A DNA stretch of 64,000 nucleotides from Undaria pinnatifida (taxonomy: Eukaryota > Sar > Phaeophyceae > Laminariales > Alariaceae): assembly GCA_012845835.1 (NCBI GenBank), contig JABAKD010000020.1, positions 2,118,936-2,182,935 of the forward strand, read 5' to 3'. This document shows positions 4,389 through 64,000 of this stretch, one piece after another (the stretch's first letter is position 1; the number at the start of each line of letters is the position of its first letter). Under the pieces are notes generated by a model. It did no database searches, was not told where the DNA came from, and saw nothing but the letters and a program-made list of their open reading frames with translations. A program made the translations under genes and the position numbers.

Positions 4389-7300
4389 TTATCGCCACGT
4401 AGAAGGGCATCGCGGCTCAAAGTAGAGCATGTTCGCCATCAACATCAAGTGATCCGATGGAAACCTATCGTTGGGGATCTGATGTCTCACTATTTTTGAG
4501 TTCTCGCGCAAGTACGGCAACCACTCCCCCCTAAACCCTTGCGCAGAAGACTGTCGCCGCCAGTCCTTCGGCGTCTTGGACCCCGGTGCCGGAGCCAGCT
4601 CGGTCTGCTGGACATCTCGTCCCTCGAGGCTCCCCAATTCCGGAACGGACAGCACTTCCAGCGGCAACAAGCAATTCGCGCTGAAAAAAATGTAGTCGAC
4701 CGTCCCAGAATAGGTATCACAGAGCGTCGTAAACGTTGGCTCCCCACCGGAGCTGTACGACATGTACGCACTCCTGAGACCTAGCGCGTGTTTCTGCCGC
4801 TCGCTCCTCGCCCCGCTCACGTTCAAGGCAGCAAGTCTAAATAAAACGCTAGTTTCTCTCTCGGAATCTGCCCCCGCCGGCAATCCTTCTACTTTTGACC
4901 CCGCACGCTCGCCAGGGGGAGATGACGCGCCGTTCGCGCAGGAGTCAAGATGATCTCCAATTATCTCTGTTCTACAAAATTTTGGTTCCGCTTTACCCCT
5001 TGTACGTGCTTCGATCCTTCTCGCCGAGCTCGCATCCTCAAGAATATGCAATTGCGACGGGTGCCCATCCCCCCTCCCGTCATCGGCCTCTGATACGAAG
5101 CCGCTCGCATCCCCGACGCTTTGCTCATCACGCGACACCACCGCGGTGGTGGAGCCCGTGTCGTCATCCACGGCGAGAGCAGCAAGGTCAACATGGTCCC
5201 GTGCACCATTTTTTTCTCTTCGTCGTCTCCGCCGCCCTGTCGAGGAGCTAGCGACACCAGGGGAGGTTTTTTTCGGGGTAGCCTCCATTATGGGGAACCC
5301 ATTGTCAGTGCGGACGTTGGCAGAGTGGGGGTGGAGCGCCGCATCGGAATATCGCGGCGTCATGCCCGAAACAGAGTTAAAGGGATGGAGTTTCTCCGCG
5401 ACTAAATCTACCATCCCATCAACCTTCACCAACTTCCGCAACTCGTACGCTCGGGGACAAGCGAGCTTTTCCTCGGTCCTTTGTCGGACTGCTTTGAGTT
5501 CTCTCTCCCGTATAATTTTGACGGAGGCTGCCCCAAGAAGCACCCTGCTTTCCGGATCGTTGCCTGCAATGCGCGGCATACAGACAGGCTCTGAACGCTC
5601 GCTCCAGGGGCCTTGACCGAGGCTGTTCACGGCCGCGACCCTGAACTCATACGCCACGCCCGAGCTGAGGCCTGTGACAGTGAAAGACCGGAGAGGGTTC
5701 TGCTCCGACTTAAACTTACCCCCCTCCGTCTCGACAAGGTCATACCCCACGCAATCCGATTCACGGATGCCTACGCTTTCCCCCGAGAGAAAACGGCTAC
5801 CCCCCGGAACCCAAAGCACCTTGTATAGATCGATCGCAGGGCTGAGGGACTCGCTGTTTTCCTGGGGGACGGGCCATCGAACCAGCGCCGTGCTCGTGGA
5901 GAGGGGTTCAACGAGGGGCTTACCGGGGGGTCCTGGCTGTGAGGGCTCTTGGGGCTCAACGCCTTTGCAGAGAATCTCATACACGCCGCTGCTGGGCGCG
6001 CAGTTCATCGTTCCGCACAGAATTACCGGAAGATGGAAGTCGGAGTTAAAAGCTTCGATGGTTCGAGTCAGACCACGCGCTTGTAGAGAGCGCACCGCAT
6101 CTCCTTGAGGCCCCTGTTCGTGAAACAGCTCGGTGCACACGATGCATGCGCCCGTTGGAAAGTTGGAGCCTTGCCACGGTTGAAGAAGCGCCATTAGTGC
6201 GACGTTGTCACTCATCACGACTTTTCCCGCAAGCAGGCGATCCTCTTCGTGCTCTCCAAGCCTGAAACACATTAAGAAGCATTATGCGTATGTCAAATGA
6301 GTGGAGGTTTGGCTTGTCCATTTTTGCCGTCTGCAATTACTGGATCCAGCAAGTACAAGCAATGTTTACTGCAAGACAACATGGATGAACTCTTTTTGGC
6401 CAGCTGTACACGATATAGCATTCTGGTAATAGCATATAAGCGTGGAAAGGTTTAGAGGGTTTGCTTCGAGGCACAGCATACTGTCGCTATCTACGATGCC
6501 AGGAGTGCTTGAACCAACAACTCAAACAACAAGCAGACGTGAGACGTGAGACGGCGGTTTCATTTCGAGCAATTTCGAACATCGAAAACCAATCAATTTC
6601 CAAGGCCGATCGTCAATTCTCGGATTAACTAAGCTCGTAATGTGGTACGTAGTGGGAAGCTGGTTAGTATGTCCTACTGTCGCTAACCCCCCCCCCCCCC
6701 CCCCCCCCCGACCCGTATCCAGGGGGCCAGTACATTTCAATCAAGGATCGACCATATATATAGATTGGATCCTTATTTAAGTGTGACCTGTTTAACTCCA
6801 GTTCTTCGCTTCGTAATAAATCGAACACGTCGCGCTTCCAGGCAATCACAACTCCATCTCGGCGCACTCCCGCTCTGCTGGTCCTTTGCTTGTATAGGCT
6901 GTCGTACCCGGCGCCAGTTAACTGCGGCCCCCACCACTGTTGAAATGATTCAACATCTTGAAGACACAGCACATCGGCTCTGAGGTGGCGGTTCACGAAA
7001 ATATGACGGAGCTTGCAACGATGAGTTTCGGGTATATATTCAATCGGTCGAACCCGCAAAAAAAAATATAAAGCACGCAATACGCAACAGAGCGTGCCAA
7101 CCGGCAAGGCGAAATCATTCGCTGATCGTAATGGTAGTCAGTTGCAGGCATCTTATTCGCATGTTCATACTATCATTTTATACAAATATTTTTAGGACGT
7201 CAGCTGTGAGTTCGACGAATTTCGGGTCAATACTCATCTTTACAAGCTGCGTTGTTGATACTCGTAATATACTATATGGGTGAGTTTTTATTGGAAGGGG

Positions 7301-11117: not shown

Positions 11118-11383
11118 GACCCAGGCTACGGTAAGGGGGTCCCTTTTTGGGCCTTGAATTTCAGTGGCTAGGGGTCACTCGCGCGAGTAACCCCTTTGTT
11201 ATTTAGCGATCTTACGTTTTCTTCATGTTTTATGTTGAAATAAATCCGCAATGCAACGGTAATCTAAGCTGCTCCAAAACAACTGCCTAAACCATTATCA
11301 TCCGTGAGGTACAGAGTCACTCGTGCGACTTGCTCAAACTCATCAGTGAAAACGGGGGTACCCCCCCTACCGTAGCCTTGGTC
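11118..11383 (+). mobile_element. MITE copy 1 (266 bp), TSD CTAT
   Basis: The element starts GACCCAGGCTACGGTA and ends TACCGTAGCCTTGGTC, so the ends are imperfect terminal inverted repeats of about 16-22 bp. It is flanked by ctat (11114-11117 and 11384-11387), a 4-bp target duplication. Inside is a palindrome around tcactcgcgcgagtaa. There is no coding capacity. Three further copies lie at 16326, 23077 and 27320. Confidence 0.9.
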
Positions 11384-12163
11384 CTATACCAGGCTCGAGA
11401 ATAAGCTGATACGCCACCGGGGCGACCGGCTATCGTATATGAGGGCTTGGGATAACTCACGTTCGACTCGCAACTTGCAACTATTAATACTTATCTTCTT
11501 GTTCTTCGTAGCGTGGAGGACACGCCAGGTTGGAGCAAGGTTCGACGGCGAACCAAGCGACGGTAACGATAGAGAAGTGCCTTGAGGCAACGAAAGGTGC
11601 TTCGCAGGCAAAACAGAGAGTCGACAGAGATTACTTGTCAGCGGGAAACGTGATTACCCGCCTCTCTGGCATCAGAATCTACGGAAACTCCACGACCACT
11701 TTTAGTACAACAAGACACGACATCCAATACCTCTGGAACGGCTATCGTTCATACAAATCTTCACGAGAAGATCTGTCTACGTAACGGTAGAAGAAGGTGT
11801 ACCTGGAACCCATATATATACCGGTTTTTTTTGTAAATATATATATATATATATATTTTTATAGAAAAAATTTTACGTATTTTTTTTATAAAAAAAATTA
11901 TAACATCTGATTCAGTAACCAGTAATAACGCGGTGGAACATGGAACCAATTTCACGACTCACACAGCTCAATAATTCAACGTTCCCTGCTCACGGCAGTC
12001 TCACTGCTGCTGTGTGTTGCCGTCAGCGCTCACCACGCATCAAACCTGTTACCTGCTACCAGGCCTGTAGACGGCACGCCGTGAAAACGAACCAGCACGA
12101 TTGCAGCAGTCGTCGTGTCGTCGTATACTATTATTTTATAAAAAAATATAAAAATTGAAAAAC
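11384..12163. repeat. Repeat-derived non-coding stretch
   Basis: No gene is supported. The part from about 11930 to 12120 resembles 32460-32650 (shared blocks such as gctcaa..ttcaacgttccct and the gccgt motif), and 10265-10310 resembles 32398-32445. The two regions therefore share an older interspersed element. Confidence 0.5.
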
Positions 12164-15818: not shown

Positions 15819-16687
15819 TGTTAAGAAATAATAGGTGACACATCAGCCTATTGTCATTCTAAATGTTCAGTAGCAAATGTACAACTCCATGTTAGCACTT
15901 GCTGCAGTGTCACGGCAGTAGCACGTAGCCTACAGAGTTGCTCGTCGGTGTGTAGTAGCACGTAGCCTACAGAGTTGCTCGTCGTTGTGGCAATGTCATC
16001 TAATACTCGTAGCGTACTCGTAGTTTGCGTTCTAGTATGGGGGTTCTCGATAGACCGTGTTTTGGGACTATTCGAGGGTTTTTTGACAACCCCGTAACTG
16101 TCTACAGGCTTCTGGAGCATAGCTGGCATCTAGACGTTGGTCGAATAATGTTTTGGAACGTAGCGGCTCTTTCGACATCGAGGGAGCAGGTAGAGCACCC
16201 CCTCTCCTGCTCACTCTTCTCAACCACATCTGAGCGTCTTCCCGTTCATCGGTCACAGTGAGCTTTAGTCGAGCCATCGAGCGCCCCTGTTCAACCGGGA
16301 ATATGTATGTTCTATACCGTATGTGGACCAAGGCTACGGTAGGGGGGGTACCCCCTTTTTCACTGGTGTGTTTGAGCCACTCGCACGAGTAGCTCTGTAC
16401 CCTACGGATGAAGATGGTTTAGGCACTTGGTTTAACGCAGCTTAGATTACCTTTGCATTGCGGATTGATTTCGTCAATGCAAAACATGAAGAAAACGTAA
16501 GATTGCACAGGAACAAAGGGGTTACTCGCGCGAGTGACCCCTACCCACTGAAATAAAAAGCCCAAAAGGGGACCCCCCTACCGTAGCCTGGGTCTGTGAT
16601 GCTCGAATTCGTCTCGCAACGACTCTGCGAGCAACCCCTGAAGACCGTCATCGGTCGGCCACCTGAGAGTGTCCTAGTTTCTCAATA
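15819..16687 (+). repeat. Copia 3' LTR, split by a MITE
   Basis: About 600 bp of LTR plus a 269 bp MITE and its 4-bp duplication. Two 37-bp tandem units lie at about 15917-15990. Numerous substitutions separate it from the 5' LTR, so the insertion is not recent. Confidence 0.9.
16326..16594 (-). mobile_element. MITE copy 2 (269 bp) nested in the Copia LTR, TSD TGTG
   Basis: Starts GACCAAGGCTACGGTA and ends TACCGTAGCCTGGGTC, opposite in orientation to copy 1. TGTG flanks it at 16322-16325 and 16595-16598. The sister LTR has a single TGTG at the same place, which proves both the borders and the 4-bp duplication. Confidence 0.95.
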
Positions 16688-20085: not shown

Positions 20086-23020
20086 CTAAGTGGTCACAGA
20101 GATGATTTGGAATAGTCGCTCCTTGCACACGCCTTTCCGCGATAGGGACGATGCGTCCGTCCCTCCAACGATGCTTGCCGCCACCTGATCTATCAGGTCA
20201 CTGCCTTCTTTACCGAGGCGCCCAAAGCTTTCCACCGCAAGGGTGGCGAGTTTGTAGCTGCGTTCGTCGAAGGACACCTGTCTCGGACGAGCGTAGTGGT
20301 TGCGCTTGCGCGTCTCGGAATTGGAAGCCGCTGGTCCGTTTCGATTCGCGCTTCCTGCCCGCATGTGGACCCCTGCTTGTGGGTCCGCACACGTCACGTC
20401 GAGGAGTGTCGACTTGTTGCAATTCTCTAGTGCCGTAGTATCTCTTAGGCCACCTGCCTCAATCACGATGTCCATTCGCAAATCCCTGTCTGCGTGGAAC
20501 GGGGCTCCGCTTTCCACCTGGTGGCGGATGGACATGCTCTTAAGGATGCGGGAGAGCGCGTGCACAAGGGGTTGGTGCTGGTTCACTTGCGCGTCCGCTC
20601 GGTGACACCATCGTGCATGCCGTGTATTAACCTCCGCTTCACCGCAGCATGGGCATCTCGCCGCCAGGAATTGCTCCATCCCCAGAAATTTCTTCCCCGC
20701 AGTCACGAACTCAGATGCAGGGATGGTTCTAGCTGAGTCTACAGGCCTCGCCCTTAGGAAGGCAGTAGCTCCTGATCCCGATTGACTCTGTTGCCGGGCT
20801 TTGGCCAAGTCTCGTGTCTCCTTCTCGCCTTGAGATTCGCTTGTGTCTCGCTGGGGCCTCGTCTCGGGGAGCTGGTCCAGCGAAGAGACGTACCGCTCAT
20901 AATGTACTTGGTTTACCACTTTACCCACTCTATGCTGCGCTTTGCTGGAGCTGATAGTTTCGGCGTTTGCAGGCAACACGTCTGCAATTGATTGCCCTGA
21001 GGCACCTTGCTCTCCTGCTCCAAAGGCTCTGTCCCGCCAGCTTTCCGGCACGATGTTTGCCATGGCCTGCTCTGAAACCTCATGCACATTGCGCAGGTCC
21101 CTGACGCTGTTCCAGATGCACCACACGAGGTCAGAATCGGGCAGCTCCGTCCGGACTTTGTTCCCTATTGTGCCGAACAGATCAGCAAGCACCTCTGGCA
21201 CCGTCGCCACCAAGCTCCCAACGGATGCTGACATCCTTCGGGCTCCAGCCGACGACAACCCAAACCCTCCGGCCCCCGTGGACAGGCTCATCTGCGCCTG
21301 TTGATGGGGTTGCAGGGTCAGCATGTTTGTCGGGCACCCGTCCGCGAAAAACGACGATTTTTCTGCTGCCCCCGGAAGATCGAGCAATCTATCCAGCATC
21401 CACAAGGCGTTGCCATCTGCTTTTTCGCATGCAGCCAGCGATAGTTCTGGGTCCATCACGCGTTCAAGGTAGGATGTCCGTTGAACCATAGAGCCGGTGG
21501 CAATCAGGTTGGCTGATTGCTTGTCCGGCATTCGCGACAACATCCGCGCGAGTTGCTTCGCTCCCCCGTTTCGGACTATCTCCATTGCGCTCTCCCTTGC
21601 GTAATCATCTGTGCCGATGGGCACCCCCACCACCTTAACCCCACCACGTTCGGCGATGCTGACGCCAATGCTTTCAAGAAGGGTGATTTGTTCCAGCGTA
21701 GGTACGTGCCCCTTTGGGAGCAGGGCAACCGTTTTGCTCGGGTTCATCGAAATTCCGATGTTGGACACCTCACGCTGGAGAAAGGGTACCACTTCCACAG
21801 TATCGGGTGTGATTTCCATAATTCCGATGATAACATAATCTAGGTAGGCGAATGCCTCTACACCTCTTGGCTCGAACTCCGCCCGTGTCCACTTCAGCAC
21901 CGGCAGGAGCGGCATGCTGAACAACGCCGGCCTCATGGCATTACCTTGTTGCACCCCGCTGGAGCAGTCGATCTTCCGCCTTTCTCCCGATTCCATCTGA
22001 AAGAACACGGGCGCAGACATCTCGCCGTAACATTTTGCCACGAACGATGTAAGCGCCGGCACGCAAGTGGCCGCATCCGCTAGCGTAGCAGTCCGCTTCA
22101 CTGTGTTGAATGCGTTGGAGCAATCGGTGAGGATCTGCCAGTTTTTTGCCTCGTGATGTATTCTTGCGCGTAGCGCTACCTGTTCCACCCCCCCTCGTAC
22201 TCCGACTCCAAACTGTCTCGCTTCGCGGTTGGCCTCCTCCAGCCGTGGTCACCACTGCCGCATGGTTCCGGCCGCAATAAGCCGCCTCCACGTCATCCCC
22301 ACGCACACGGGGCGGCATTTTTTATCCAGGGCATTGAGGTTGGATTACAAGAAGAGCTTCCAGAATTCAGGCGGGAAGGCGTTTGGATCATCGATAATTC
22401 TTCTCCAGAAGGCTTCAATACCAGCTCTGAATTTTCCGCGGCCAAAACCAGTCCTGATTATTGACTGCAAGTGCGAGAAGCGCAGACCGTCGCTTCTCGC
22501 GCCTGATAAGGCGTTGCGAGAATTGATGACTCCGAGGGCCACCTGTCGGTCGAACTCTTCCTCCGGGCGCCAGTTAGGTACACTGCCTTCCTCTTGGTCG
22601 GAGGAACTTGCTGCCACCGCTGCCGCTGCAGTTTCGGAGACGCAGGCCTGGATCTCCTCCGGGAGCTTTGCATTTACGCGCTCCCACGTTTGCTCGTTCC
22701 CCGGCGCGCGCGGTTCCGCGAGGAGACTGCGTGCTGCCACAGTAACCCTCCCTTGCTGGCGGCATGCTGATGATGCCCTCTTGAACATATCAGCGTCCGT
22801 CTCTTTGCGGGCTTGGCCGATTTGCCTCGTCGATGTTCGACGGGTATACTCCATTAACCACGGGAGCAAGAGGGTGAGGTCACCGCGTTTGGCAGACGCA
22901 AACCTCTCACGCCGTTTCATTCGGCATCCTGCGAGTGCAGTAGAGCTGGGAGGACGTACCACAACTTGATTGACCTCAGGAGTGATTGCGGTGCCTCCGA
23001 TTGTGTGGATTGGCGATGCT
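20086..23020 (-). pseudogene. LINE reverse transcriptase with restriction-like endonuclease, broken
   Basis: One frame runs from about 23020 to the stop at 20086, over 950 codons, with two internal stops (TAA near 22345, TGA near 22265). Reverse transcriptase motifs are visible: SDGLRFSHLQ, LTDCSNAFN (first catalytic Asp), SSGVQQGNAMRPALF and FAYLDYVIIG. The last should read YLDD; the second Asp is Tyr. Near residues 505-525 of the downstream part is a knuckle C-P-C-C-x9-H-x4-C, followed by DLRMDIVI and LLDVTCADPQA. These match the R/KPD...D core of the restriction-like endonuclease found in R2, NeSL and CRE-type elements. These elements integrate by target-primed reverse transcription, often at fixed sites. 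The stops and the active-site change show that this copy is dead. Confidence 0.85.
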
Positions 23021-23076
23021 CTCCCAAGGCGTGATTGAGGAGGCCAAGCACATGGGTGATAAGCTTAGCATGGGCA

Positions 23077-23345
23077 GACCCAGGCTACGGTAGGGGGGTC
23101 CCCTTTTGGGCCTTTTATTTCAGTGGCTAGGGGTCACTCGCGCGAGTAACCCCTTTGTTCCTATGCAATCTTACGTTTTCTTTATGTTTTACATTGACGA
23201 AATCAATCCGCAATGCAAAGGTGATCTAAGCTGCGGCAAACCAAGTTCCTAAACCATCTTCAACCGTAGGGTACAGAGCTACTCGTGCGAGTGGCTCAAA
23301 CACACCACTGAAAATGGGGGTACCCCCCCTACCGTAGCCTTGGTC
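23077..23345 (+). mobile_element. MITE copy 3 (269 bp), TSD GGCA
   Basis: Starts GACCCAGGCTACGGTA and ends TACCGTAGCCTTGGTC. GGCA lies on both sides (23073-23076 and 23346-23349). It sits in the LINE between the zinc-finger part and the reverse transcriptase. Confidence 0.93.
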
Positions 23346-24679
23346 GGCAGTAGCCACCCTCTGCTGCACTTTGACAACAGTGGCGAAGCGTTGTTGGAGG
23401 TCCTCAAGGGGGACATCATCGAACGGTCCTGCAATTCCCAATATGTTTTGGTCCCAGGGATAGCAGAGGCCATCCCGGCGCTCTTTCTCGTCATCGTCAA
23501 GTTTTCCCCCGAGTCCCGCTGCCGTCACGCGTAGTCCAGGGTCAGCCTAAACTGCCGCTTCTATTGCTTCCCGTCTTCCATGGCGGACTCTGCACCCCCT
23601 TGCTCCGCAGAGAAACGATGCCTGCGCCCCGCCTCGTCTGACCTCATTCACCACGCACCGCGAATGCATTGCATGTTGACGTCCACGGGGCACCCCCACC
23701 ACTCGGTGTCCCCGAGCAATTGTTGCTCACAGCCCCCACAGCTCGTACTGCTGTGGTAGTCTGCAATGAAAGCGCGAAGTTGCGTGACACTCCCTGGTGC
23801 TGACCCTCCTCCCTTTCCGTCCCCGCCTTCCCTCTCTCCACCACCAACCCTTCCTTCGGCAGGATCTGAGGGAACCACGCCGCTTCCATGTCAAGGGATT
23901 CGCCCCCGGTTTGTGGTGGCTCCTCTCCCAGTTCTCGTCGCTCGTGTTCCTCTTCCGGATCCGCGCGGTCGACCTCGCGTGCCTCTTGTGCTTCTCCCAC
24001 CCTCTACTGCACCAGTGGACGTAGACGCAGTCGCTCTCGATGTTGCTGGGGTGACGCTGGGCTGTGTTGGGGGCGCGTGCGAGTGTCCCGGCGCCGTCGC
24101 CTCCCTGTTTTCGGCAGTTCGGGAGTTTTCCGTGGCAACAGATACAGCACCTCCTGGCTCCGTCTGCTCCCTCCCCCCGGGGTCACCTTCTGACGCTAGA
24201 GTTGCTCCTTCCGGTGGTGTCACGCCCGCTGCTGAAGGGTCGCTCTCCCGTGCCGGGCCCGTTCCTTCCGCCGTGCCCCTCAACGCCGCTGGGGTGGCGC
24301 TGGGCTGACTCAGAGGGGGGGGCAAGGGCCCCGCCACCGTGACATCTCCTTGTTCGGCCATGAGGGTGTTATCCACGGCTACATAAGCGGCGCCTCCTGG
24401 CTCCGCCTGCCCCCTTACCCTCGAGACACCTTCAGACGCCGGGGCTGCTCCTTCCGGTTGTGTTATTCCCGCTGCTAGCGAGTCACTCTCCAGCGCCGGG
24501 TCTGTTCCTTCCGGTCTTAACCCCGCTGCCGTCGGGGAGGGAAGTACCTCGTTCCCCGCCTCAAACCCGTTTTGGAGCCCGAGGGTCTACGTTGCCATCG
24601 GGAACGGAGGAAGCGCCTCCCCCTCTTCTAACGCATTTCGGACCCGGAGGGTCCATCTCGTTAGGCGGTCCTCCCACGT
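23346..24679 (-). pseudogene. LINE linker region with a Cys-rich finger
   Basis: Broken frames on the minus strand. At 23650-23765 there is SCGGCEQQL...WWGCPVDVNMQCIRG, a possible CxxC...C...C zinc site. At 23891-24376 the sequence is rich in Ala, Thr, Pro, Gly and Arg (low complexity). No enzyme motif is seen. Confidence 0.45.
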
Positions 24680-26154
24680 TCAGTCGAGGCCCGCCAAGAC
24701 CTCTTGGACATGAGGTAAGATGTAGATCCTTCGATATGGGAGTTGGAGTAGAGTATCCTGCGGGCGGATGCCGTACGTGGTGAAGATCTCACGGTAGTGA
24801 CCGGCTGCCGCTCTCCATTCTCTCGGTCGGGGGAAGCCAAGGTAGGCGCCTTGAGGCAGGCCAAGAGCATCGCCGAACAGGGAGCACAACAGGAACGAGA
24901 AGGTTGGGCTACTCCCATGAGTCCTCACCATCTCCTCAAAAGTATCGTGGGAACCAGCCGTGACGTAACTAGCTGGGTCCCACCGGGGGCCGTCCTCCTC
25001 CAAGAAATCGGCAAACTGCAGGGCTCCCGATACTGTCGGCCACTTTCCCCCCGAGCGTCGCCTTGAACGATCCTCAGCCAGCTCAGCCCGATGAAGAGAC
25101 TGATTCCTTGCCGGCCATTCCGAGTGACACGCGACGCATGGTTGTGGGTCTGCATGCCTACTCGCGAGGCGTTCCGCACGGTCTAGCATGCAGCGGGCAT
25201 GTACTTGCTCTCCGTGCGGACACGGAATAAGTGCCCATAAAGGGTCTACCGCCGAATCCCCAGTAGGCTCCTCGAGTGCCCGCCCGCAGTAGGCGCAGGG
25301 AGGTGCACCCCTGCTTCCCGCGGCATGATGCCTCTCTGCTGCACTCCTAGCAGCGCCTCCTTGTTCAGTTAGTCCCGTGTGTGAAGGGTCGTTCTCCAGC
25401 GTCCGGTCCGTTCTCTCCGGTGTCGCTGCCATCGCTGTTGAGAAGGACGGAAGCGCATCACCCGATTCCAACGCGCTTCGGACCCCGAGGGTCCACCTCG
25501 CTCTTCGCATTCGGCGTCGAGGCCTACTAGATATTGTTGAACGTGAGGTGCGATGTAGATTCTTTGATTTTGGAGTCGGAGTAAGATATCCTGCGGTTGG
25601 ATGGCGCACGCAGCGAACAGCGTACGGTATCGGCCTGCCGCCATTTCCCATTCCCTCGGTCGGGGAAAATTGAGGTATGCCCCTTGAGGCAGGTCCAGCG
25701 CATCGCAAAATAGGGAACATAGCAAGAACGAGGAGGTTGAGCTCCTTCCGTGTGCATGGAACATGAGCTCAAACGTACCGTAAATGCCGGTTGTCACGTA
25801 GCTGGCTGACCCCAGTCCGGAGATGTGCCACTGAACGCGGGCGACGAACTGCAGGGTATCTCTCACCGCCCCCCACCTTCCCTCATGTCCGTCCATGGAC
25901 ATCCCTCTAGCCAGCTCCGCCGGGTGGGGAAGTCGGCTTCCTCCCGGCCACGCCGAGCGATACGCGACGCAGGGCCTAGGATCTGCATGTCCTCTTGTGA
26001 GATTTTTCGCGCGGTCCAGCATGCAGCTGGTGTGCACAAAGCCTCCATGGGCGCACGGAACGGGTACTCGAGCGTCGTCTTCCCCTGACTCCCCACTAGA
26101 GTTATCGAGAGGCCAACCGCAGTACGTGCACCGAAATTCCTCGGACTCCTCCAA
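24680..26154 (-). pseudogene. Two tandem RING-like modules of the LINE
   Basis: Two related blocks of about 220 residues lie at 26150-25500 and 25320-24680. Module 2 keeps a full RING-type pattern: CAYC, PCPHGEQVHARC, PCVAC. Module 1 has CTYC, PCAHGGFVHTSC and PCVAY, so its last Cys is lost. Both continue with SFLLCSLF.DAL.LPQGAYL.FPRPREW and PHVQ..L.GLD, a conserved block I do not recognise. A frame change after module 1 separates them. RING fingers bind zinc and usually recruit ubiquitin-conjugating enzymes. In LINE proteins, Cys/His fingers more often bind nucleic acid, so the function here is open. Confidence 0.6.
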
Positions 26155-27319
26155 TCCCCTTTCAACGTCTTGACCACCTTCACCTGTGACTCGCGGCCTC
26201 CTCTACACCCGAGGTCGGTGATCGCCACAATATATCTAACTGTCGTTGTTGGTGAGCGCCATCCGGGGTAGTGCAATCGTATCTCATGTGGATTCTGGGC
26301 ACTATTGCCGTGAGTCGGAACGTTCTCCGACGTGACACCCTGTCCCGTCTCGGATAGGTACCCCAAATCGGTCGTTCCCCCTGCCGTCTGCTCCTGCTGC
26401 GCTTTCTACGGCACACCTCCTGTGGACGAGCCAGCCATCAAAGCGAACCTCTGGTCATCCTTCAAGTGCCTGCCACAGACCCCACACGGCGCTCGCACTT
26501 GTTGCTGGGGGATCGCGCCCCGTCATTCTCCGTGGTGGTCCTCCTCATCTAGATATGTGAGATTCCGCGATAAGTCCACCATTTCCGGCGTAATGTGCGC
26601 TCTTCTCCGGAGGCGCTGTTCAGCTGCGGTTACCTTGGCTCTGATCTCTTGTTCTTCCGTCGTGTTCACCGACCTGCCAAGGGCCCGAATCTGTTGGAGG
26701 AAGGGGCGTAGATCGACCTCTTGATGCTCCTCGTGCAGAGTCGGGTTCGGGCACGTAGCTAGGTCTACCCCTCCGAAAGTCCTAGCTCGGGGGACTGCAT
26801 CCTCGCAGAAGCCTAAAGCACAACAGCGATGTACGTCGCACGAGCAGGACACTTGTACGCAATGAGTCTCCATAACCAGACCATGGCAAACGCTGCATAT
26901 TGCTCGCCGCCTCCTGCCTCCTCTTACGGCCCTTGTTGTTAGCCTTGATTGCCCTTGTTGGCATCTCTCGCCATGCGACCGTCAACACCTCCACCATGAC
27001 CTCATTGATGTGCTGACGGAGCGCCATCCCGTCGGCCTCGTTGACTGTTACGATCGCCCGACATGCCGGACACCGTAGATCGGCCTCCGTTCTGACTCGC
27101 AGTGCGGTGTAAGACGGAAGGTGCAGTCGATGGGAGCAGCTCTCTAAATATACCAAAGGAGAGGCCAATGCCTCATAGCATACACAGCAGTCTTCCGAGG
27201 GTTCCTCCCAGAGCTGGTTTTCTGTAGGCGTCGGCGATGGTGTCCGTGGCGGAGACGGAGGCAGTTCGGGCGTCGGTACGGGTGCCGGACCCCTTCCCCC
27301 CGCCGTCCGTGTAGGTGTC
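26155..27319 (-). pseudogene. RING-like and second Cys/His finger of the LINE
   Basis: From about 27240 down to 26920 one frame encodes DCCVCYEAL...ESCSHRLHLPSY...LRCPACRA, a RING-like finger, then a Lys/Arg-rich stretch. A frame change near 26915 leads into ICSVCHGLV...HCVQVSCSCDVHRCCALGFC, a second zinc-binding segment, and then a helical stretch (PFLQQIRALGRS). An in-frame stop follows at 26523, then another CxxC (APCGVCGRHL). Direction and order match the LINE. Confidence 0.5.
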
Positions 27320-27588
27320 GACCAAGGCTACGGTAGGGGGGGTACCCCCATTTTCACTGGTGTGTTAGAGCCAGTCGCACGAGTGACTCTGTACCTCACG
27401 GATGAAAATGGTTTAGGCACTTGTTTTGAAGCAGCCTAGATTACCTTTGCATTGCGGATTGATTTCGTCAATATAAAACATGAAGAAAACGTAAGATTAC
27501 ACAATATCAAAGGAGTTACTCGCGCGAGTGACCCCTAGTCACTGAAATTCAAGGCCAAAAAAGGGACCCCCTTACCGTAGCCTGGGTC
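27320..27588 (-). mobile_element. MITE copy 4 (269 bp), TSD TGTC
   Basis: Starts GACCAAGGCTACGGTA and ends TACCGTAGCCTGGGTC. TGTC flanks it at 27316-27319 and 27589-27592. The frame of the interrupted LINE gene is continuous across the insertion if the MITE and one TGTC are left out. Confidence 0.95.
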
Positions 27589-28188
27589 TGTCGTCCGTGA
27601 CGGCCTTGGCGATGCTGCCTCTGCCGTCCTGACCACTGTCTGCGATGGCGTTTCGAGCGCAGGGACCACACTCGGTGTCAAGATAGGTGTCGCCGTCGAG
27701 GGATGGCCAGTTGTGGGCAGCTGCGGCCGCGGCGGCAGTGACGGTGACGGACTTGGCGATGACGTTGTGGGTGACGTGGCGGATGAAGAGGTAGCTGACG
27801 GCAGTTGCAGTGTCGTCGGAGGGGTCGAGGCGATCACCGATATCGCTAGGGAGGGCTGTATCGACGATTGAGACTGCCCCCTTGATGCAGGCCGTGGTGA
27901 GCGTGACTCGAAGATTGGTGCCTGTGCAGGCCTTGATGTCTGTGGTGGTGTCTCTCCTACTAGCGGTTCACCTTCTATGACGGGTGTGCTTAAGCCCCCA
28001 AGTGAAAACGGTGGATCTCCCGTTAGCGGCGCACCTTTTATGACGGGTGTGCTCGAATCCCCAAGTGTAAGGGGTGCAGTTAGGGGTGGTACCAATTCCG
28101 TTGTCGGCGGCTGTGATGCGCCAGGCGTGTCCGGAGATTGTTCCGGCAACGACTGTGCTGGTTGGGAATGTGTTGCCGACGACTCCAT
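27589..28188 (-). pseudogene. Pro/Ser/Thr-rich N-terminal segment of the RING-like LINE protein
   Basis: About 200 codons of low-complexity sequence with repeats such as TPVIKGAPL and TPVIEGEPL. It begins with an ATG at 28188 and runs up to the MITE border. Beyond the MITE the same frame continues through more Pro/Thr residues into the first RING-like finger. It is probably a disordered linker. Confidence 0.5.
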
Positions 28189-40405: not shown

Positions 40406-44078
<3,673 letters not shown>

Positions 44079-55566: not shown

Positions 55567-55941
55567 ACATCCAGCAAAAACGGTGTCCTTGCCGATTCGT
55601 CATCCTACAGAGACAAAAGTTTTGTGCGAGTAGTCACAAACTTCGAAAAAGACACCGGTTTACATCGCAAGTACTACATCAAGACAAAAAGCACATACTG
55701 GCATATACCAGGGCAACCCCTTTTTGCACGACGATCGTCCAAAGAAAAAGTGCACGACTCCAAAACGCCTCCTGAACCACACACCCAGAAACCTGAACCA
55801 CACACCCAGAAACCCTTGTTCAAATCAGAAACACAACGTGAGTACCAAGGCACGATTACCGCACGCATCACAGCCCCCACACCGCCACAAGGATCAAGCA
55901 GCACGCGCAAATCAGACGAAACACAGCAGGCATGTCTCTGA
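55567..55941 (+). CDS. Hypothetical exon with WW-like segment
   Basis: After the acceptor ccgcccatag the frame is open for 124 codons to a stop at 55941. It encodes SFVRVVTNFEKDTGLHRKYY then IKTKSTYWHIPGQPLFARRS, loosely like a WW domain (YY...STYW..PGQ), followed by a duplicated PEPHTQK unit. It overlaps the ankyrin gene start in another frame. It may be the 3' exon of a separate gene. Confidence is low. Confidence 0.35.
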   Translation, partial: TSSKNGVLADSSSYRDKSFVRVVTNFEKDTGLHRKYYIKTKSTYWHIPGQPLFARRSSKEKVHDSKTPPEPHTQKPEPHTQKPLFKSETQREYQGTITARITAPTPPQGSSSTRKSDETQQACL

Positions 55942-57655
55942 TGGATGTTGCCATCGCGATGGTGGCTCGTAGTGCAAGCGCTGACACCGACGTGCGATCC
56001 GAGCACCAGCAGAAGCACCAACGGCCGAATCATCGGGAGGCGGCACGAGCAACCGCAGGAGCGACAGCAGGAGAGGCCGCAGAGGAACAGGTGAGGATAG
56101 AAGTGTGTCCCGTGAGATCACGTTCGACGACGTGCACCCCGTGAACTGAGACTGCTGTGTCGCCGATGTGGATGACGCCTTGTTGCTGTGGAATCATGTG
56201 GGCTGAAGAAAATTTAAAATTGAAAAAGCAGATTTTGTCATGTGTATGGACTCTACATTGTACAAAAGTGATGAAGGCCTGGTACGTTCGTTTTGTGTAG
56301 CAAATATTAAATCTCTGCTAAGTCCTTCCTCTCGCAAAACCTGCTGGATGTAGAGGCATCATGGCAAATTCATCCACACGACCCGCCCGCCGTGTTTCCA
56401 CCCATGATATTGGCCCATGTTGGAACTGTATTTTTGTTTTCAGGTGCTGCACAACCCGGACGTGCGTGCGGAGATCATTGCCTTCGTGGGCGGGCGGCAG
56501 CTGCAAGCGTATAAATTTGTAGGGAGGGTTTCAATGCGGTGGCGAAACACATTTTTCGAAGGGATACCACGGGAAACCGCGAGCTCCGCTATCGTGACGT
56601 CGGTTCCTCGCACGATGGAGGCGTTGGGCTTAGGTTGGAAGCCGGGCAACGGAGCACTGAAATGTGCCGCAGGAGAGGGGAATATCGAAGTACTGAATCT
56701 GTTGCTGGAATCGGAAGTACTGAAAGACGCACGTGACTTGGGCGAGTGGGGCGATGGAGTGTTCGCAGCTGCTGCGGAGGCCGGGCACACTCACGTTCTG
56801 AAGTTCTTGATCGTTGCCGGCTGCTATAAGGACCAGATGGGATTGAAGGCCTTAGAAGTCGCCGTTGAGTCGGGTAGTGCGGCCATGCTAGACTGCTGCG
56901 ACATCTCTGACCTACGTCATTCCGAAAATGGATTTGTTCTGGACGAGCAGCGCGTGGAGGCCGAGGCTATTGTGACCCCTCCTCTTAAAGAGGCGATAGC
57001 AAGCAGAGACTTGGAAATGGTGCGGTCTCTTTCGCATTTCGTGGGGGCTGCCGGGGAAAGCGGGGGATGGATGCGCGACCAAGTTCTGGAGTTTGCGGAA
57101 GATGGCGACATGGAGATGCTGCTATGCCTGGAGGATATGATCATGTGTGGGCGATATGAAGGGTTGTTCTTGGACACGTTCTGGACAGCGGTCGAACATG
57201 GCCGGTTTAGCGCGGTGGCCCAATTGTTGACTTGGTGGTCAGGAGTACCTCCTCACATGCGCGCTGAAACGGGCGGCCAGCAACTTGTCCCGGACGGCGT
57301 CCTGGTCATGGTAGCCAGACTCGGACATTTGGGAATGTTGCGGTGGTGCAAAACAAACTTTCCCTTAGTTTCCCGGGGCTTCTGCCTGTATTGCGCTTCG
57401 GTGGACGGCTGGTCGCGTGTACCCGCCGACGCCGCTGGCGCCGGGCATGTCGATTTAGTTTTGTGGTGCCTCGATAACGGGTGGGAATATGACGAGAGTT
57501 GGATGGAAGCCGCTGCGAAGGAGGGACGTTCGCATGTCATTGCGGCGTTGGTGGGGAGGGGTTTCGCCTGCCAGGTGCAAGTTGAACAGGCAGCGAGGTG
57601 TGACGAGGGTATGGAACGGTATCTTGCTGATCTTCTGCCTTGCGAGTGGCATTAA
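55932..57655 (+). CDS. Ankyrin-repeat protein, left palindrome arm
   Basis: Two exons join in phase 0 to 456 residues: 55932-56090 (donor gtgagg) and 56444-57655 (acceptor tttgttttcag). The N-terminus is Ala/Arg/Gln-rich. At the junction VLHNPDVRAEIIAFVGGRQL and FVGRVSMRWRNTF form an F-box-like helical segment. About nine degenerate ankyrin repeats follow, for example ALKCAAGEGNIEVLNLLLES, VFAAAAEAGHTHVLKFLIVA, GAGHVDLVLWCLDNGW and AAAKEGRSHVIAALVGRG. Large families of such proteins occur in brown algae and other stramenopiles; they are protein-binding scaffolds of unknown targets. The start could lie further upstream. An identical copy occupies the other arm. Confidence 0.75.
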
Positions 57656-58290
57656 AAATCCGTACTTGTCGTGCCGCGCAAAGGTTTGCGCTGCTGTTTC
57701 AAGGTCGCGTGGCTACAGGTATTTTTAGATTGAAAACCTGCTGCGTTGTGATCGTCGTTGAGGGAAGACGGGGCCCAAGAGACGTGAAAAGAGACGTGAA
57801 AACGCACGCGTGCATGGCGATCCATGCGTAAGGCTAGATGTTCGGAGGGAGGGACCGTCAAGGTGCTGGGTTCCTCGAGGAGATGAGGTTCTCGAGTCCT
57901 CTCTCGTTGCGCTTGCGATGTGCGGCAGACGTGCCCTCGAGCACAACACCTCAACACCAATCACCCGAAATGCTAAATGGCGCTCCTTATTAACGTGGTA
58001 ATTTCGAACGGTCTGCTGGCTTTCAACTCGTACCCCCTTTATCACACACCCCGTTTACCACCGGTGGAAAATCACCATCCAATCACATCCAATGACCCCC
58101 ACACCGCTTGAGGACGGCGATGACATGAAATCATCCACCCAAACACGCTATGTGGCAGTCCATCACCTTGGATGTAGATCCACAGGGGGGGGGGGGGTCG
58201 ACCAACACCAAACGCGAAATCCGCTGAGCAGCACGATGCCATCGGCCTCCAACTTCGTTTAACTTCCCTCGTGGTCGTGCACGAACACGT
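57656..58290. other. Non-coding part of the left arm
   Basis: No gene. Has a (G)13 run at 58185-58197, mirrored by (C)13 at about 61795-61807. Confidence 0.5.
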
Positions 58291-59862
58291 CTAAACAGGA
58301 AAGAACAGGAAACCGGCAACCTCACCAACGTTTTCAATGGCCTTGCGCGCGTCCCCTAAGCAGTGCCCCGCCGGATTCGATGCTAGACCGCTGCTACTAC
58401 CTTGACTTCTAGCGGCTGGTTGGCGCTCAGCTTGTGGGTTGCCAACCACAGCCCCCTCTCCCGAAGAAATCCTCGCCGCGGCGTTGAGGCTACTCTCGAA
58501 AGTCTGTACGATGGCACGCAGAGTGTCAGGGGGGACCAGCTGCACCCCAGAGCTCACGGCCGCACGGGTCCTCTTCAACATCTCAACGTACAGGAGCCGG
58601 CGTTCCTGGCTACTCTGCCCTGTCTGCGCATCCCTCCTCTGCAGAGTACACTCTATGGTGGCGTTCTCCGGGATTGCTGGGATTGCTTGCCAAGTGTCAA
58701 CCATCGCTACGGTAGGAGCGCGTACTTGGTTTTCGTCGGACGCGCCGGCGTGGTTCCGCGCTACCATCCATTGCGGTTTGCACTCTGGTGGCCAAGCCTC
58801 TAGTTCCCTTAGGCCATTCTCTGTTAGCCAATGCCTGTTGAGTATGCCTACATGGAATTTGAACTTCGGGGTCAAACGCATGGCCTGCCAAAAGTGCCGA
58901 CAACATAGACCGAGCTCTTGCAGTGTACGGCACGAGCAGACGTGACTGCCATCCTCCATACTGCACACTATGTACTGCATCTCTCGGCCCTGACGGCTCT
59001 CAACGACGACGGCGACCGTCTCGACGCTTACCATCAAGTCGCCCAGGAACTCTAGTTTCCCTAGTGCTGAGAAACGTTCCGCCCCCTCAAGCACTTTGTT
59101 ACCACCACCACAAAAAATGGCGGCGGCGTCCATCTCTTGGGTCATGAACCTAAGCGGCCACTGCCCAAGCCCGTAACGGATGGGGGCCATGAACCTCTCC
59201 CCAAACCGCACCCCGCCAATGTCCTGAAGCTCAACAGCTGGAAGGGCGAGCCGAGCGCTGCGAAATTTCGCCCGATCTTCCTGAGCCTCGAGTGTTCCCT
59301 CGAAGAACTCAAAGACCCCTTGCAAAGAAGTCATCGCGCCGCAGACTTTCTTCATGATTTTGTTGATACCTGCCGCGGTTGGCAGGCGTGCCGAACATGG
59401 TTCGGTGGGTTGTCACAACATTGCATGAAGTGGAGAACAAGTACATAGGACAGACATCGATGGACGTCTACCACTCTTTCCAGAGGGCAGAGCAAAAAGA
59501 AGTTGAGGAAATGGGTCGCCAGCGTCGCTATTCCTAGTGTGGGCGCTGCAAAAGTATACAAGCACGCAACATGCAGCAGTGGACACGTGGCCGTGGTCGC
59601 CCCGACGAACACCGAAGCACAAAGCATACTCCGATACATGCTGACCACGCAAGGGCCCACCTTCGACTCGGCTGGAGGTGAAGGACGAAATACTGAACTT
59701 CAGCACAGAGAAAGCAGCTGCCCAGCGATGACGGTCCTTGTACAGAGTGTGCCGCAAGTACCCCTCCGCCTTCGGGTATTTCTCGACCAGCTCTTCGAAC
59801 GATTCCTCGAACCCGGACTCCGACAGCAGGCCGCGCATCTTCAGGAAGTCTCCGAAGAAAGC
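58291..59862 (-). pseudogene. MULE/FAR1-like transposase, 3' half, left arm
   Basis: Exons 59862-59661 and 59369-58291 join in frame (donor gtgggc, acceptor cgcggcag) to 426 residues. The first exon is preceded by the acceptor ctacactcatag, so earlier exons are missing. It encodes FFGDFLKMRG, ELVEKYPKAEGYLRHTLYKD, RHRWAAAF and SSRVEG, continuing INKIMKKVCGAMTSL, the C-terminal part of Mutator-like transposases. A SWIM zinc finger follows at VCSCRTLQELGLCCRHFW (CxC...CxH). The N-terminal catalytic part with the first two Asp residues is absent, because the palindrome axis falls in the preceding intron. The product cannot be an active transposase. Confidence 0.8.
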
Positions 59863-60089
59863 CTATGAGTGTAGTGGGTGGGGTTACAGACAGCGACGAC
59901 GGCAGCTGCCCAGCGATGACGGTCCTTGTACAGAGTGTGCCGCAAGTACCCCTCCGCCTTCGGGTATTTCTCGACCAGCTCTTCGAACGATTCCTCGAAC
60001 TCGGACTCCGACAGCCGGCCGCGCATCTTCAGGAAGTCTCCGAAGAAAGCCTATGAGTGTAGTGGGTGGGGTTACAGACAGCGACGACG
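59714..60089 (-). repeat. Two tandem 188-bp units at the palindrome axis
   Basis: 59714-59901 and 59902-60089 are near-identical direct copies covering the end of the transposase intron and part of its exon. The right arm holds one inverted copy (about 60091-60278). Confidence 0.95.
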
Positions 60090-60100
60090 GCCATCGTCGC
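60081..60100. repeat. Axis of the palindrome
   Basis: gcgacga-cggcca-tcgtcgc: the two arms meet with a spacer of at most 6 bases, around 60090/60091. Confidence 0.9.
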
Positions 60101-60130
60101 TGTCTGTAACCCCACCCACTACACTCACAG

Positions 60131-61701
60131 GCTTTCTTCGGAGACTTCCTGAAGATGCGCGGCCGGCTGTCGGAGTCCGGGTTCGAGGAATCGTTCGAAG
60201 AGCTGGTCAAGAAATACCCGAAGGCGGAGGGTACTTGCGGCACACTCTGTACAAGGACCGTCATCGCTGGGCAGCTGCTTTCTCTGTGCTGAAGTTCAGT
60301 ATTTCGTCCTTCACCTCCAGCCGAGTCGAAGGTGGGCCCTTGCGTGGTCAGCATGTATCGGAGTATGCTTTGTGCTTCGGTGTTCGTCGGGGCGACCACG
60401 GCCACGTGTCCACTGCTGCATGTTGCGTGCTTGTATACTTTTGCAGCGTCCATACTAGGAATAGCGACGCTGGCGACCCATTTCCTCAACTTCTTTTTGC
60501 TCTGCCCTCTGAAAAGAGTGGTAGACGTCCATCGATGTCTGTCCTATGTACTTGTTCTCCACTTCATGCAATGTTGTGACAGCCCACCGAACCATGTTCG
60601 GCACGCCTGCCAACCGCGGCAGGTATCAACAAAATCATGAAGAAAGTCTGCGGCGCGATGACTTCTTTGCAAGGGGTCTTTGAGTTCTTCGAGGGAACAC
60701 TCGAGGCTCAGGAAGATCGGGCGAAATTTCGCAGCGCTCGGCTCGCCCTTCCAGCTGTTGAGCTTCAGGACATTGGCGGGGTGCGGTTTGGGGAGAGGTT
60801 CATGGCCCCCATCCGTTACGGGCTTGGGCAGTGGCCGCTTAGGTTCATGACCCAAGAGATGGACGCCGCCGCCATTTTTTGTGGTGGTGGTAACAAAGTG
60901 CTTGAGGGAGCGGAACGTTTCTCAGCACTAGGGAAACTAGAGTTCCTGGGCGACTTGATGGTAAGCGTCGAGACGGTCGCCGTCGTCGTTGAGAGCCGTC
61001 AGGGCCGAGAGATGCAGTACATAGTGTGCAGTATGGAGGATGGCAGTCACGTCTGCTCGTGCCGTACACTGCAAGAGCTCGGTCTATGTTGTCGGCACTT
61101 TTGGCAGGCCATGCGTTTGACCCCGAAGTTCAAATTCCATGTAGGCATACTCAACAGGCATTGGCTAACAGAGAATGGCCTAAGGGAACTAGAGGCTTGG
61201 CCACCAGAGTGCAAACCGCAATGGATGGTAGCGCGGAACCACGCCGGCGCGTCCGACGAAAACCAAGTACGCGCTCCCACCGTAGCGATGGTTGACACTT
61301 GGCAAGCAATCCCAGCAATCCCGGAGAACGCCACCATAGAGTGTACTCTGCAGAGGAGGGATGCGCAGACAGGGCAGAGTAGCCAGGAACGCCGGCTCCT
61401 GTACGTTGAGATGTTGAAGAGGACCCGTGCGGCCGTGAGCTCTGGGGTGCAGCTGGTCCCCCCTGACACTCTGCGTGCCATCGTACAGACTTTCGAGAGT
61501 AGCCTCAACGCCGCGGCGAGGATTTCTTCGGGAGAGGGGGCTGTGGTTGGCAACCCACAAGCTGAGCGCCAACCAGCCGCTAGAAGTCAAGGTAGTAGCA
61601 GCGGTCTAGCATCGAATCCGGCGGGGCACTGCTTAGGGGACGCGCGCAAGGCCATTGAAAACGTTGGTGAGGTTGCCGGTTTCCTGTTCTTTCCTGTTTA
61701 G
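60131..61701 (+). pseudogene. MULE/FAR1-like transposase, 3' half, right arm, frameshifted
   Basis: Exons 60131-60331 and 60623-61701 correspond to the left copy; the second exon encodes the same 354-residue SWIM-finger part. In the first exon the left copy reads gaggggtac and this one gagggtac, so one G is missing near 60228 and the frame is broken. The upstream acceptor is cactcacag. The 5' part of the gene is missing here too. Confidence 0.8.
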
Positions 61702-62336
61702 ACGTGTTCGTGCACGACCACGAGGGAAGTTAAACGAAGTTGGAGGCCGATGGCATCGTGCTGCTCAGCGGATTTCGCGTTTGGTGTTGGTCGACCCCCC
61801 CCCCCCCTGTGGATCTACATCCAAGGTGATGGACTGCCACATAGCGTGTTTGGGTGGATGATTTCATGTCATCGCCGTCCTCAAGCGGTGAGGGGGTCAT
61901 TGGATGTGATTGGATGGTGATTTTCCACCGGTGGTAAACGGGGTGTGTGATAAAGGGGGTACGAGTTGAAAGCCAGCAGACCGTTCGAAATTACCACGTT
62001 AATAAGGAGCGCCATTTAGCATTTCGGGTGATTAGTGTTGAGGTGTTGTGCTCGAGGGCACGTCTGCCGCACATCGCAAGCGCAACGAGAGAGGACTCGA
62101 GAACCTCATCTCCTCGAGGAACCCAGCACCTTGACGGTCCCTCCCTCCGAACATCTAGCCTTACGCATGGATCGCCATGCACGCGTGCGTTTTCACGTCT
62201 CTTTTCACGTCTCTTGGGCCCCGTCTTCCCTCAACGACGATCACAACGCAGCAGGTTTTCAATCTAAAAATACCTGTAGCCACGCGACCTTGAAACAGCA
62301 GCGCAAACCTTTGCGCGGCACGACAAGTACGGATTT
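61702..62336. other. Non-coding part of the right arm
   Basis: Mirror of 57656-58290; no gene. Confidence 0.5.
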
Positions 62337-64000
62337 TTAATGCCACTCGCAAGGCAGAAGATCAGCAAGATACCGTTCCATACCCTCGTCACACCTCGCT
62401 GCCTGTTCAACTTGCACCTGGCAGGCGAAACCCCTCCCCACCAACGCCGCAATGACATGCGAACGTCCCTCCTTCGCAGCGGCTTCCATCCAACTCTCGT
62501 CATATTCCCACCCGTTATCGAGGCACCACAAAACTAAATCGACATGCCCGGCGCCAGCGGCGTCGGCGGGTACACGCGACCAGCCGTCCACCGAAGCGCA
62601 ATACAGGCAGAAGCCCCGGGAAACTAAGGGAAAGTTTGTTTTGCACCACCGTAACATTCCCAAATGTCCGAGTCTGGCTACCATGACCAGGACGCCGTCC
62701 GGGACAAGTTGCTGGCCGCCCGTTTCAGCGCGCATGTGAGGAGGTACTCCTGACCACCAAGTCAACAATTGGGCCACCGCGCTAAACCGGCCATGTTCGA
62801 CCGCTGTCCAGAACGTGTCCAAGAACAACCCTTCATATCGCCCACACATGATCATATCCTCCAGGCATAGCAGCATCTCCATGTCGCCATCTTCCGCAAA
62901 CTCCAGAACTTGGTCGCGCATCCATCCCCCGCTTTCCCCGGCAGCCCCCACGAAATGCGAAAGAGACCGCACCATTTCCAAGTCTCTGCTTGCTATCGCC
63001 TCTTTAAGAGGAGGGGTCACAATAGCCTCGGCCTCCACGCGCTGCTCGTCCAGAACAAATCCATTTTCGGAATGACGTAGGTCAGAGATGTCGCAGCAGT
63101 CTAGCATGGCCGCACTACCCGACTCAACGGCGACTTCTAAGGCCTTCAATCCCATCTGGTCCTTATAGCAGCCGGCAACGATCAAGAACTTCAGAACGTG
63201 AGTGTGCCCGGCCTCCGCAGCAGCTGCGAACACTCCATCGCCCCACTCGCCCAAGTCACGTGCGTCTTTCAGTACTTCCGATTCCAGCAACAGATTCAGT
63301 ACTTCGATATTCCCCTCTCCTGCGGCACATTTCAGTGCTCCGTTGCCCGGCTTCCAACCTAAGCCCAACGCCTCCATCGTGCGAGGAACCGACGTCACGA
63401 TAGCGGAGCTCGCGGTTTCCCGTGGTATCCCTTCGAAAAATGTGTTTCGCCACCGCATTGAAACCCTCCCTACAAATTTATACGCTTGCAGCTGCCGCCC
63501 GCCCACGAAGGCAATGATCTCCGCACGCACGTCCGGGTTGTGCAGCACCTGAAAACAAAAATACAGTTCCAACATGGGCCAATATCATGGGTGGAAACAC
63601 GGCGGGCGGGTCGTGTGGATGAATTTGCCATGATGCCTCTACATCCAGCAGGTTTTGCGAGAGGAAGGACTTAGCAGAGATTTAATATTTGCTACACAAA
63701 ACGAACGTACCAGGCCTTCATCACTTTTGTACAATGTAGAGTCCATACACATGACAAAATCTGCTTTTTCAATTTTAAATTTTCTTCAGCCCACATGATT
63801 CCACAGCAACAAGGCGTCATCCACATCGGCGACACAGCAGTCTCAGTTCACGGGGTGCACGTCGTCGAACGTGATCTCACGGGACACACTTCTATCCTCA
63901 CCTGTTCCTCTGCGGCCTCTCCTGCTGTCGCTCCTGCGGTTGCTCGTGCCGCCTCCCGATGATTCGGCCGTTGGTGCTTCTGCTGGTGCTCGGATCGCAC
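62337..64000 (-). CDS. Ankyrin-repeat protein, right arm (5' end outside window)
   Basis: Exon 2 (63548-62337) encodes the same protein as the left copy with no coding change that I can see. Exon 1 starts at 63902 and continues past the window edge; its ATG would lie near 64060. Intron borders are the same. See the left copy for domains. Confidence 0.75.

Follow-up and report, generated by a model that had tools for sequence, protein, structure and literature searches.

How can a long inverted repeat with no spacer come to stand in the genome of a kelp, and does it stand there at all? The question is raised by a 64,000-nucleotide stretch of DNA from Undaria pinnatifida (contig JABAKD010000020.1, positions 2,118,936 to 2,182,935 of the forward strand; the whole stretch is called the window here). 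Its end reads as two mirrored arms with ankyrin and truncated Mutator-like transposase genes. The explanation that we prefer, with a confidence only a little better than even, is that the inverted duplication is real, that fold-back at a break gave rise to it, and that it was later broken again at its centre while the outer arms were kept alike. If this is true, a natural palindrome with readable scars, probably from a haploid clone, offers a test case beyond yeast, mouse and human for formation, breakage and persistence. If the structure is an artefact, HiC_scaffold_20.g08641 is a false gene model in the annotation, and the assembly calls for correction at this locus.

Structure of the palindrome

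When the last 14 kb of the window were compared with its minus strand by BLAST, the left arm (55992-59903) paired with 60090-64000 over 3912 columns at 99.64% identity, with 13 mismatches and one gap. Global alignment of the two arms by MAFFT likewise gave 13 mismatches at 3910 aligned positions and one 1-bp gap. Chance is out of the question as the source of mirror symmetry at such length; the longest other inverted pair in the window, from a self-BLAST with rows above 60 bp, is 275 bp. The axis lies at 60090/60091, and in the first 30 bp outward from it the sole non-pair is 60088/60093. An initial annotation of this DNA had described a near-perfect palindrome with arms meeting at this very point and still paired at the window edge, and both statements are borne out. 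The parts of the structure are as follows.

55992..60090, plus strand: left arm, visible part; continues left of 55992 if the mirror goes on past 64000
60091..64000, minus strand: right arm; pairing persists to the final base of the window
60088..60093, no strand: hexamer CGGCCA around the axis; a 6-nt hairpin loop, or an axis with zero spacer in which a single base has mutated
59714..59901, plus strand: 188-bp unit, copy L1 (left arm, outer)
59902..60089, plus strand: 188-bp unit, copy L2 (left arm, inner; joined in tandem through a 2-bp GC match)
60091..60278, minus strand: 188-bp unit, copy R (right arm, sole copy)

The window stops within the right arm, and the size of the palindrome, at least 8 kb, is therefore a lower bound. 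Position 55992 had been given as the outer end of the interval. The mirror itself stands, but 55992 is not a demonstrated biological boundary, because it merely mirrors the base at which the window ends, and exon 1 of the ankyrin gene (55932-56090) runs across it.

The layout of the two arms also needs a correction. They are inverted as first described, but they are not in simple register: the long arms pair at i+j=119992, whereas the innermost 188 bp pair around 60090/60091. The offset comes from a 188-bp unit present as two head-to-tail copies in the left arm and as a single copy in the right arm. The inner end of L2 coincides with the axis to within 2 bp, the uncertainty that the GC match leaves in placing the tandem joint. 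If such a joint were placed at random along the arm, a boundary no more than 2 bp from the axis would be expected about once in 800 cases, a figure computed after seeing the data. An end on the axis with a 2-bp match fits repair of a break at the axis, and we read the unit as a probable scar of such a break. A centre revision that added a unit while keeping a symmetric 188-bp core would be unusual.

The same sequence is thus arranged head to head with a spacer of 0 or 6 nt, which is the arrangement by which a fold-back inverted duplication is recognized. The parental sequence past the axis, namely the remainder of an intron, is present in neither arm.

Gene content of the arms

From the outside towards the axis, each arm has the ankyrin gene and then the last exons of the transposase gene, convergent with it. 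Related proteins are cited below by number (P0002 and so on); those labelled Undpi1 we take to be from Undaria pinnatifida.

55932..56090, plus strand: ankyrin exon 1, left arm; residues 1-53 of P0037 (residues 1-54 map to 55932-56093 at 100%)
56444..57655, plus strand: ankyrin exon 2, left arm; within the open reading frame (ORF) 56417-57655
62337..63548, minus strand: ankyrin exon 2, right arm; within ORF 62337-63575, protein same as left
58291..59370, minus strand: transposase last exon, left arm; Mutator-like, 354-codon ORF 58291-59355
59659..59862, minus strand: transposase preceding exon, left arm (copy L1)
60622..61701, plus strand: transposase last exon, right arm; same protein as left arm across 354 codons
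60131..60333, plus strand: transposase preceding exon, right arm; 1-nt deletion in a G run, frame shifted

The 412-codon ankyrin ORF, which has an Ank_2 domain (E 1e-9), and the 354-codon transposase ORF encode the same proteins in both arms. An intact ankyrin gene and a truncated transposase had been proposed for each arm. The truncated transposase holds for both, and so does the ankyrin ORF; the intactness of the right-arm ankyrin gene does not follow, since its exon 1 is cut off by the window end.

A search with the transposase ORF found 36 proteins. The last exon matches five of the seven Undpi1-labelled models at 97-100% (P0002, P0004, P0006, P0011 and P0031), and the other two at 53% (P0033) and 74-91% (P0036). 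In the arm ORFs themselves the transposase domain PF10551 of Mutator-like elements (MULEs) was not found, and a SWIM match below threshold (E 0.4) was the only one seen. In P0011, a relative with the Undpi1 label, PF10551 lies at residues 186-279, and the arms begin at about residue 293-294 of that protein. The arms can thus be taken as fragments related to a MULE, since they start beyond the PF10551 region, and by this comparison the catalytic part is missing from both. Their transposase sequence begins directly after a splice-acceptor-like AG, and in both arms an intron appears to be the site of the cut.

The Mutator-like element seems to include the ankyrin gene. In models of both Ectocarpus and Undaria an ankyrin-repeat gene appears to travel with Mutator-like transposases, possibly as cargo. 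For example, the Ectocarpus protein P0012 unites Ank_2 and MULE domains within a single model. Shared contigs are suggested by equal longest-contig values, 65,700 for both P0035 and P0040 and 8,352 for both P0009 and P0044. The C-terminal stretch of P0039, another ankyrin copy, matches the spacer between ankyrin and transposase genes at 58188-58259 (91.7%), and the cluster of the ankyrin protein P0037 has 17 member sequences. In a literature search limited to open papers, no relevant report of an ankyrin gene captured by a MULE transposon, or of a brown-algal Mutator with ankyrin, was found by title. Pattern searches of other collections were uninformative, as these are unlikely to hold kelp DNA: in viral contigs, six stretches fitted a pattern for transposase relatives with none confirmed, and the axis pattern had no match; in prokaryote genome contigs, the intron pattern beside the axis had none either.

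Differences between the arms

If the two arms were the two strands of one molecule, they should be near-equal, with random error only. This is not what was found. Eleven of the 13 differences are transitions, the extra 188-bp unit is one-sided, and three copies of the unit carry private changes. Residual PacBio error consists mostly of indels, and the arm differences, with their one single-base gap, look unlike it.

The private changes were seen in the exon that lies within the unit, which was compared with the four Undpi1-labelled proteins that hold it in alignable form (P0004, P0006, P0011 and P0036). L1, L2 and R all share a change of Glu to Gly against all four relatives. L1 alone has Arg to Leu and L2 alone Gly to Glu, each at a residue on which the four relatives agree. 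R has Glu to Lys at a site that is Glu in three of the four and Asp in P0004. The more distant Ectocarpus P0012 retains the Arg and the Gly and has other residues at the remaining two sites. Taken together, these differences look as if the arms had descended separately from a recent common parent, and less as if a single molecule had been read twice.

The differences are also unevenly placed. The innermost 501 bp hold eight of the 13 (1.6%) and the outer 3409 bp only five (0.15%), with Fisher P = 5e-5 for a cut chosen after looking; a Kolmogorov-Smirnov test against an even spread along the arm, which needs no cut, gave P = 0.002. Differences are rarer in coding sequence (five in 2597 bp, against eight in 1313 bp of non-coding sequence; Fisher P = 0.04). 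However, coding constraint alone is insufficient for the gradient, because the trend persists at non-coding sites, where the eight differences cluster at the centre with P = 0.013. Compatible with the gradient are a failure of conversion close to the axis, mutagenic repair of the centre, or the persistence of palindromes whose centre is less regular.

Gene model P0002 and the source assembly

One annotated protein spans the axis.

58294..60354, minus strand: gene model P0002, running from the right arm (antisense) through the axis, L2 and L1 into the left arm

Of the 550 residues of P0002 (jgi/Undpi1 HiC_scaffold_20.g08641), 549 match the window, at 100% identity and in four blocks (60354-60130, 60035-59892, 59862-59659 and 59370-58294). 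As the match is perfect through the axis, the axis exists in the assembly behind P0002. Its first ~75 residues are the antisense of the transposase exon and intron of the right arm, so that P0002 is likely a false gene model. The match to P0002, as the single basis of the placement, would put the window on HiC_scaffold_20; a distant gene gave no second anchor, for none of the 38 proteins matched by the 627-codon ORF at 4389-6272 bears the Undpi1 label. Going by the HiC_scaffold label, the source is probably the haploid male gametophyte clone M23. The assembly of that clone is described as made from PacBio Sequel reads with Falcon, Arrow, Pilon and 3D-DNA (Shan et al. 2020, PMC7058681), and the Kr2015 assembly as made from a sporophyte and anchored by a genetic map (PMC7929912).

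Origin of the palindrome

The initial annotation had offered a recent inverted duplication of the breakage-fusion, foldback or transposon-driven kind. Of these, the foldback or break-fusion type is the origin that we judge best, if by a narrow measure of confidence, and "recent" fits the outer arms better than the centre. The events would be the following. A break would leave a DNA end inside an intron of a Mutator-like transposase gene, one that has an ankyrin gene in its company. This end would fold back or be fused to its sister, either on the CGGCCA axis or no more than a few bases from it, and then be copied; judged from the sequence, sister fusion and fold-back are equally possible. The product would be two head-to-head copies of the ankyrin-side part of the element. 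Later the centre would break again, and one end would be rejoined 188 bp back by way of the 2-bp GC match, which would account for the additional unit with its end on the axis. Near-identity would persist in the outer arms, most simply through arm-to-arm gene conversion, while the last ~0.5 kb by the axis would drift apart or be mutated by repair.

We put forward more tentatively what this would mean for the organism. A long spacer-free palindrome of at least 8 kb may be inherited in a brown alga with a haploid phase, broken at its centre and rebuilt with the axis surviving, the outer arms being matched by conversion and the last ~0.5 kb left unconverted or mutated by repair. Its arms would then preserve a trace of the way in which living cells cope with a structure that laboratory hosts soon alter or lose.

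Several points weigh against the fold-back account. The case is built from assembled sequence only, with the outer junctions beyond view, and P0002 may stem from the very assembly of the window, in which case it is not independent. The gradient from centre to edge rests on just 13 differences, the gap in R sits in a G run, as a sequencing error would, and the element is a multi-copy repeat. In the upstream exon, the differences at 59784 and 59828 are both amino-acid changes, so purifying selection is not seen there. The supposedly haploid clone has a reported k-mer heterozygosity of 0.48% (PMC7058681), a sign that repeats or mixed DNA blur the data of that survey. Centre revisions described in mouse cells were deletions in 93% of 118 cases (PMC8701086), whereas the unit found here is a duplication that leaves the axis symmetric. 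In the yeast work, the wild type gave few such events, 2/3 with a 35-bp spacer (PMC10622511).

The strongest competitor, and the main alternative already named by the initial annotation, is an artefact of assembly or library. We consider it less probable in view of the arm differences and keep it as a possibility that must be taken seriously, though a clearly smaller one than real duplication. Here a PacBio molecule would have been read round its end because of a missed adapter, or a contig end misjoined, and the differences would be leftovers of polishing or reads from other copies of the repeat. Foldback reads are described as a known long-read artefact able to tangle assembly graphs (PMC12870357), and the sequence probably goes back to PacBio Sequel reads put together with Falcon (PMC7058681). 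A subread of N50 length (11,463 bp) has room for an arm of ~4 kb in each half, a multi-copy element misleads polishing, and the far side of the right arm lies beyond the window. The same literature search found no paper on palindromic chimeras from missing PacBio adapters. However, arms from a single molecule should not differ chiefly by transitions, nor is a one-sided tandem copy with private changes in L1, L2 and R expected from them. All three differences within the two long ORFs are synonymous, which speaks against an artefact as well. As for a misjoin, a zero-spacer joint of two different repeat copies would need both to be cut at the same base.

An origin driven by the transposon itself seems unlikely. 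Interrupted gap repair is a source of broken Mutator elements, and both arms are the same part of such an element. After excision of a Mutator-like element, both ends of the gap could have copied the same ankyrin-side end of a sister element until they met, the product being an element with two mirrored ends. However, two independent tracts would usually stop at different bases and leave an unpaired middle, and we rank this double repair low because it is at one and the same base that the arms join.

Selection for arm-to-arm conversion could also maintain a palindrome, as it does on the mammalian Y, and here it would preserve the ankyrin gene; this is much less probable still. In each arm the ankyrin ORF and the transposase ORF are intact, with the same proteins encoded on either side, and similarity is far higher in the outer arms than at the centre, as such maintenance would have it. 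On the other hand, the genes resemble transposon cargo with relatives elsewhere, such as the P0037 cluster, and there is no kilobase spacer like that of P8 (PMC6790999). A maintained palindrome of sex-chromosome type had been suggested at first; nothing was found for it, nor any sign that HiC_scaffold_20 is a sex chromosome, a point beyond the reach of this analysis, and the content is a truncated transposon. In a paper that deals with the sex chromosomes of brown algae, a term search of the main text met the word stem "palindrom" 0 times (PMC12592211).

Finally, the arms could be the alleles of one heterozygous locus, placed head to head. Alleles could differ by about as much as the arms do (13/3910, or 0.33%, is allele-like in our judgement), but we regard this as barely credible, because the likely source is haploid, the HiC_scaffold label fitting the 3D-DNA-scaffolded gametophyte clone (PMC7058681) and not the sporophyte Kr2015 (PMC7929912), and clustering of differences at the axis would not be expected.

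Other features of the window

A repeat of ~270 bp occurs in four copies (11118-11384, 16325-16597, 23075-23349 and 27316-27591), in both orientations and at 86.6-95.6% pairwise identity. Its ends are near-mirrored (GACCAAGGCTACGGTAGG... and ...CCTACCGTAGCCTGGGTC), and it is probably a small non-autonomous DNA transposon. On the minus strand, a 627-codon ORF at 4389-6272 with a fibronectin type III domain has 38 matches, the best at 98%; where the organism is named, five of six are brown algae and one is a green alga, and four matches add the endonuclease/exonuclease/phosphatase domain PF03372. The 700-codon ORF at 20086-22188 (minus strand) has a reverse transcriptase domain (PF00078) and is a retroelement fragment. 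Two adjacent related ORFs at 24680-26154 (minus strand) share 67% DNA identity over ~700 bp and show a cysteine/histidine-rich stretch by eye; this pair had no Pfam match above the cut-off. An AAT microsatellite of ~39 units, 98% matching, lies at 42113-42228. No tRNA genes were found in the window, and it gave no Rfam match at gathering score.

Comparison with known systems

Fold-back or hairpin-capped inverted duplications, known from human and from yeast lacking Mre11 nuclease activity, likewise consist of two mirrored copies with short inverted repeats at the centre. In such yeast, the inverted duplications are reported to have central inverted repeats of 3-15 bp, and one studied repeat has a 6-bp spacer, which supports fold-back priming at a resected break (PMC10622511). 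Among sequenced human inverted duplications, the disomic spacers given are 766-70,466 bp (PMC3907307), in contrast to 0 or 6 nt in the kelp. The kelp case further differs from these duplications in its 188-bp tandem unit that ends on the axis.

For the later history of the centre, a mouse palindrome of 15.4 kb offers a close parallel. Its junction is described as changed in ~35% of offspring, and when its symmetry was lost in cells, its stability rose 25-fold (PMC8701086). Both mouse and kelp have an asymmetric change located at the axis, but the mouse revisions reported are for the most part small deletions by which symmetry at the centre is lost (PMC8701086), whereas the kelp has a duplication that leaves a symmetric core. 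With the palindromes of the Y chromosome the kelp structure shares long, highly identical arms, consistent with conversion between them. The arms of Y palindrome P8 are given as 37-38 kb and its spacer as 3.4 kb (PMC6790999); the kelp palindrome carries transposon-borne genes and has no spacer.

The arms are closest in sequence to brown-algal MULEs, as the match of the last exon to Undpi1-labelled models indicates. MULEs in general have terminal inverted repeats and a target-site duplication of 9-11 bp. The relatives carry PF10551, whereas both kelp copies are without the catalytic part, and the outer ends of the element lie outside the view. Among the matches listed from the open papers, no title reported a genomic palindrome in Undaria, and none of those on palindromes or inverted duplications held the term "brown alga". 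Fold-back inverted duplications are already known, and a natural spacer-free kelp palindrome with a scar at its centre would thus be a good new case and not a new kind.

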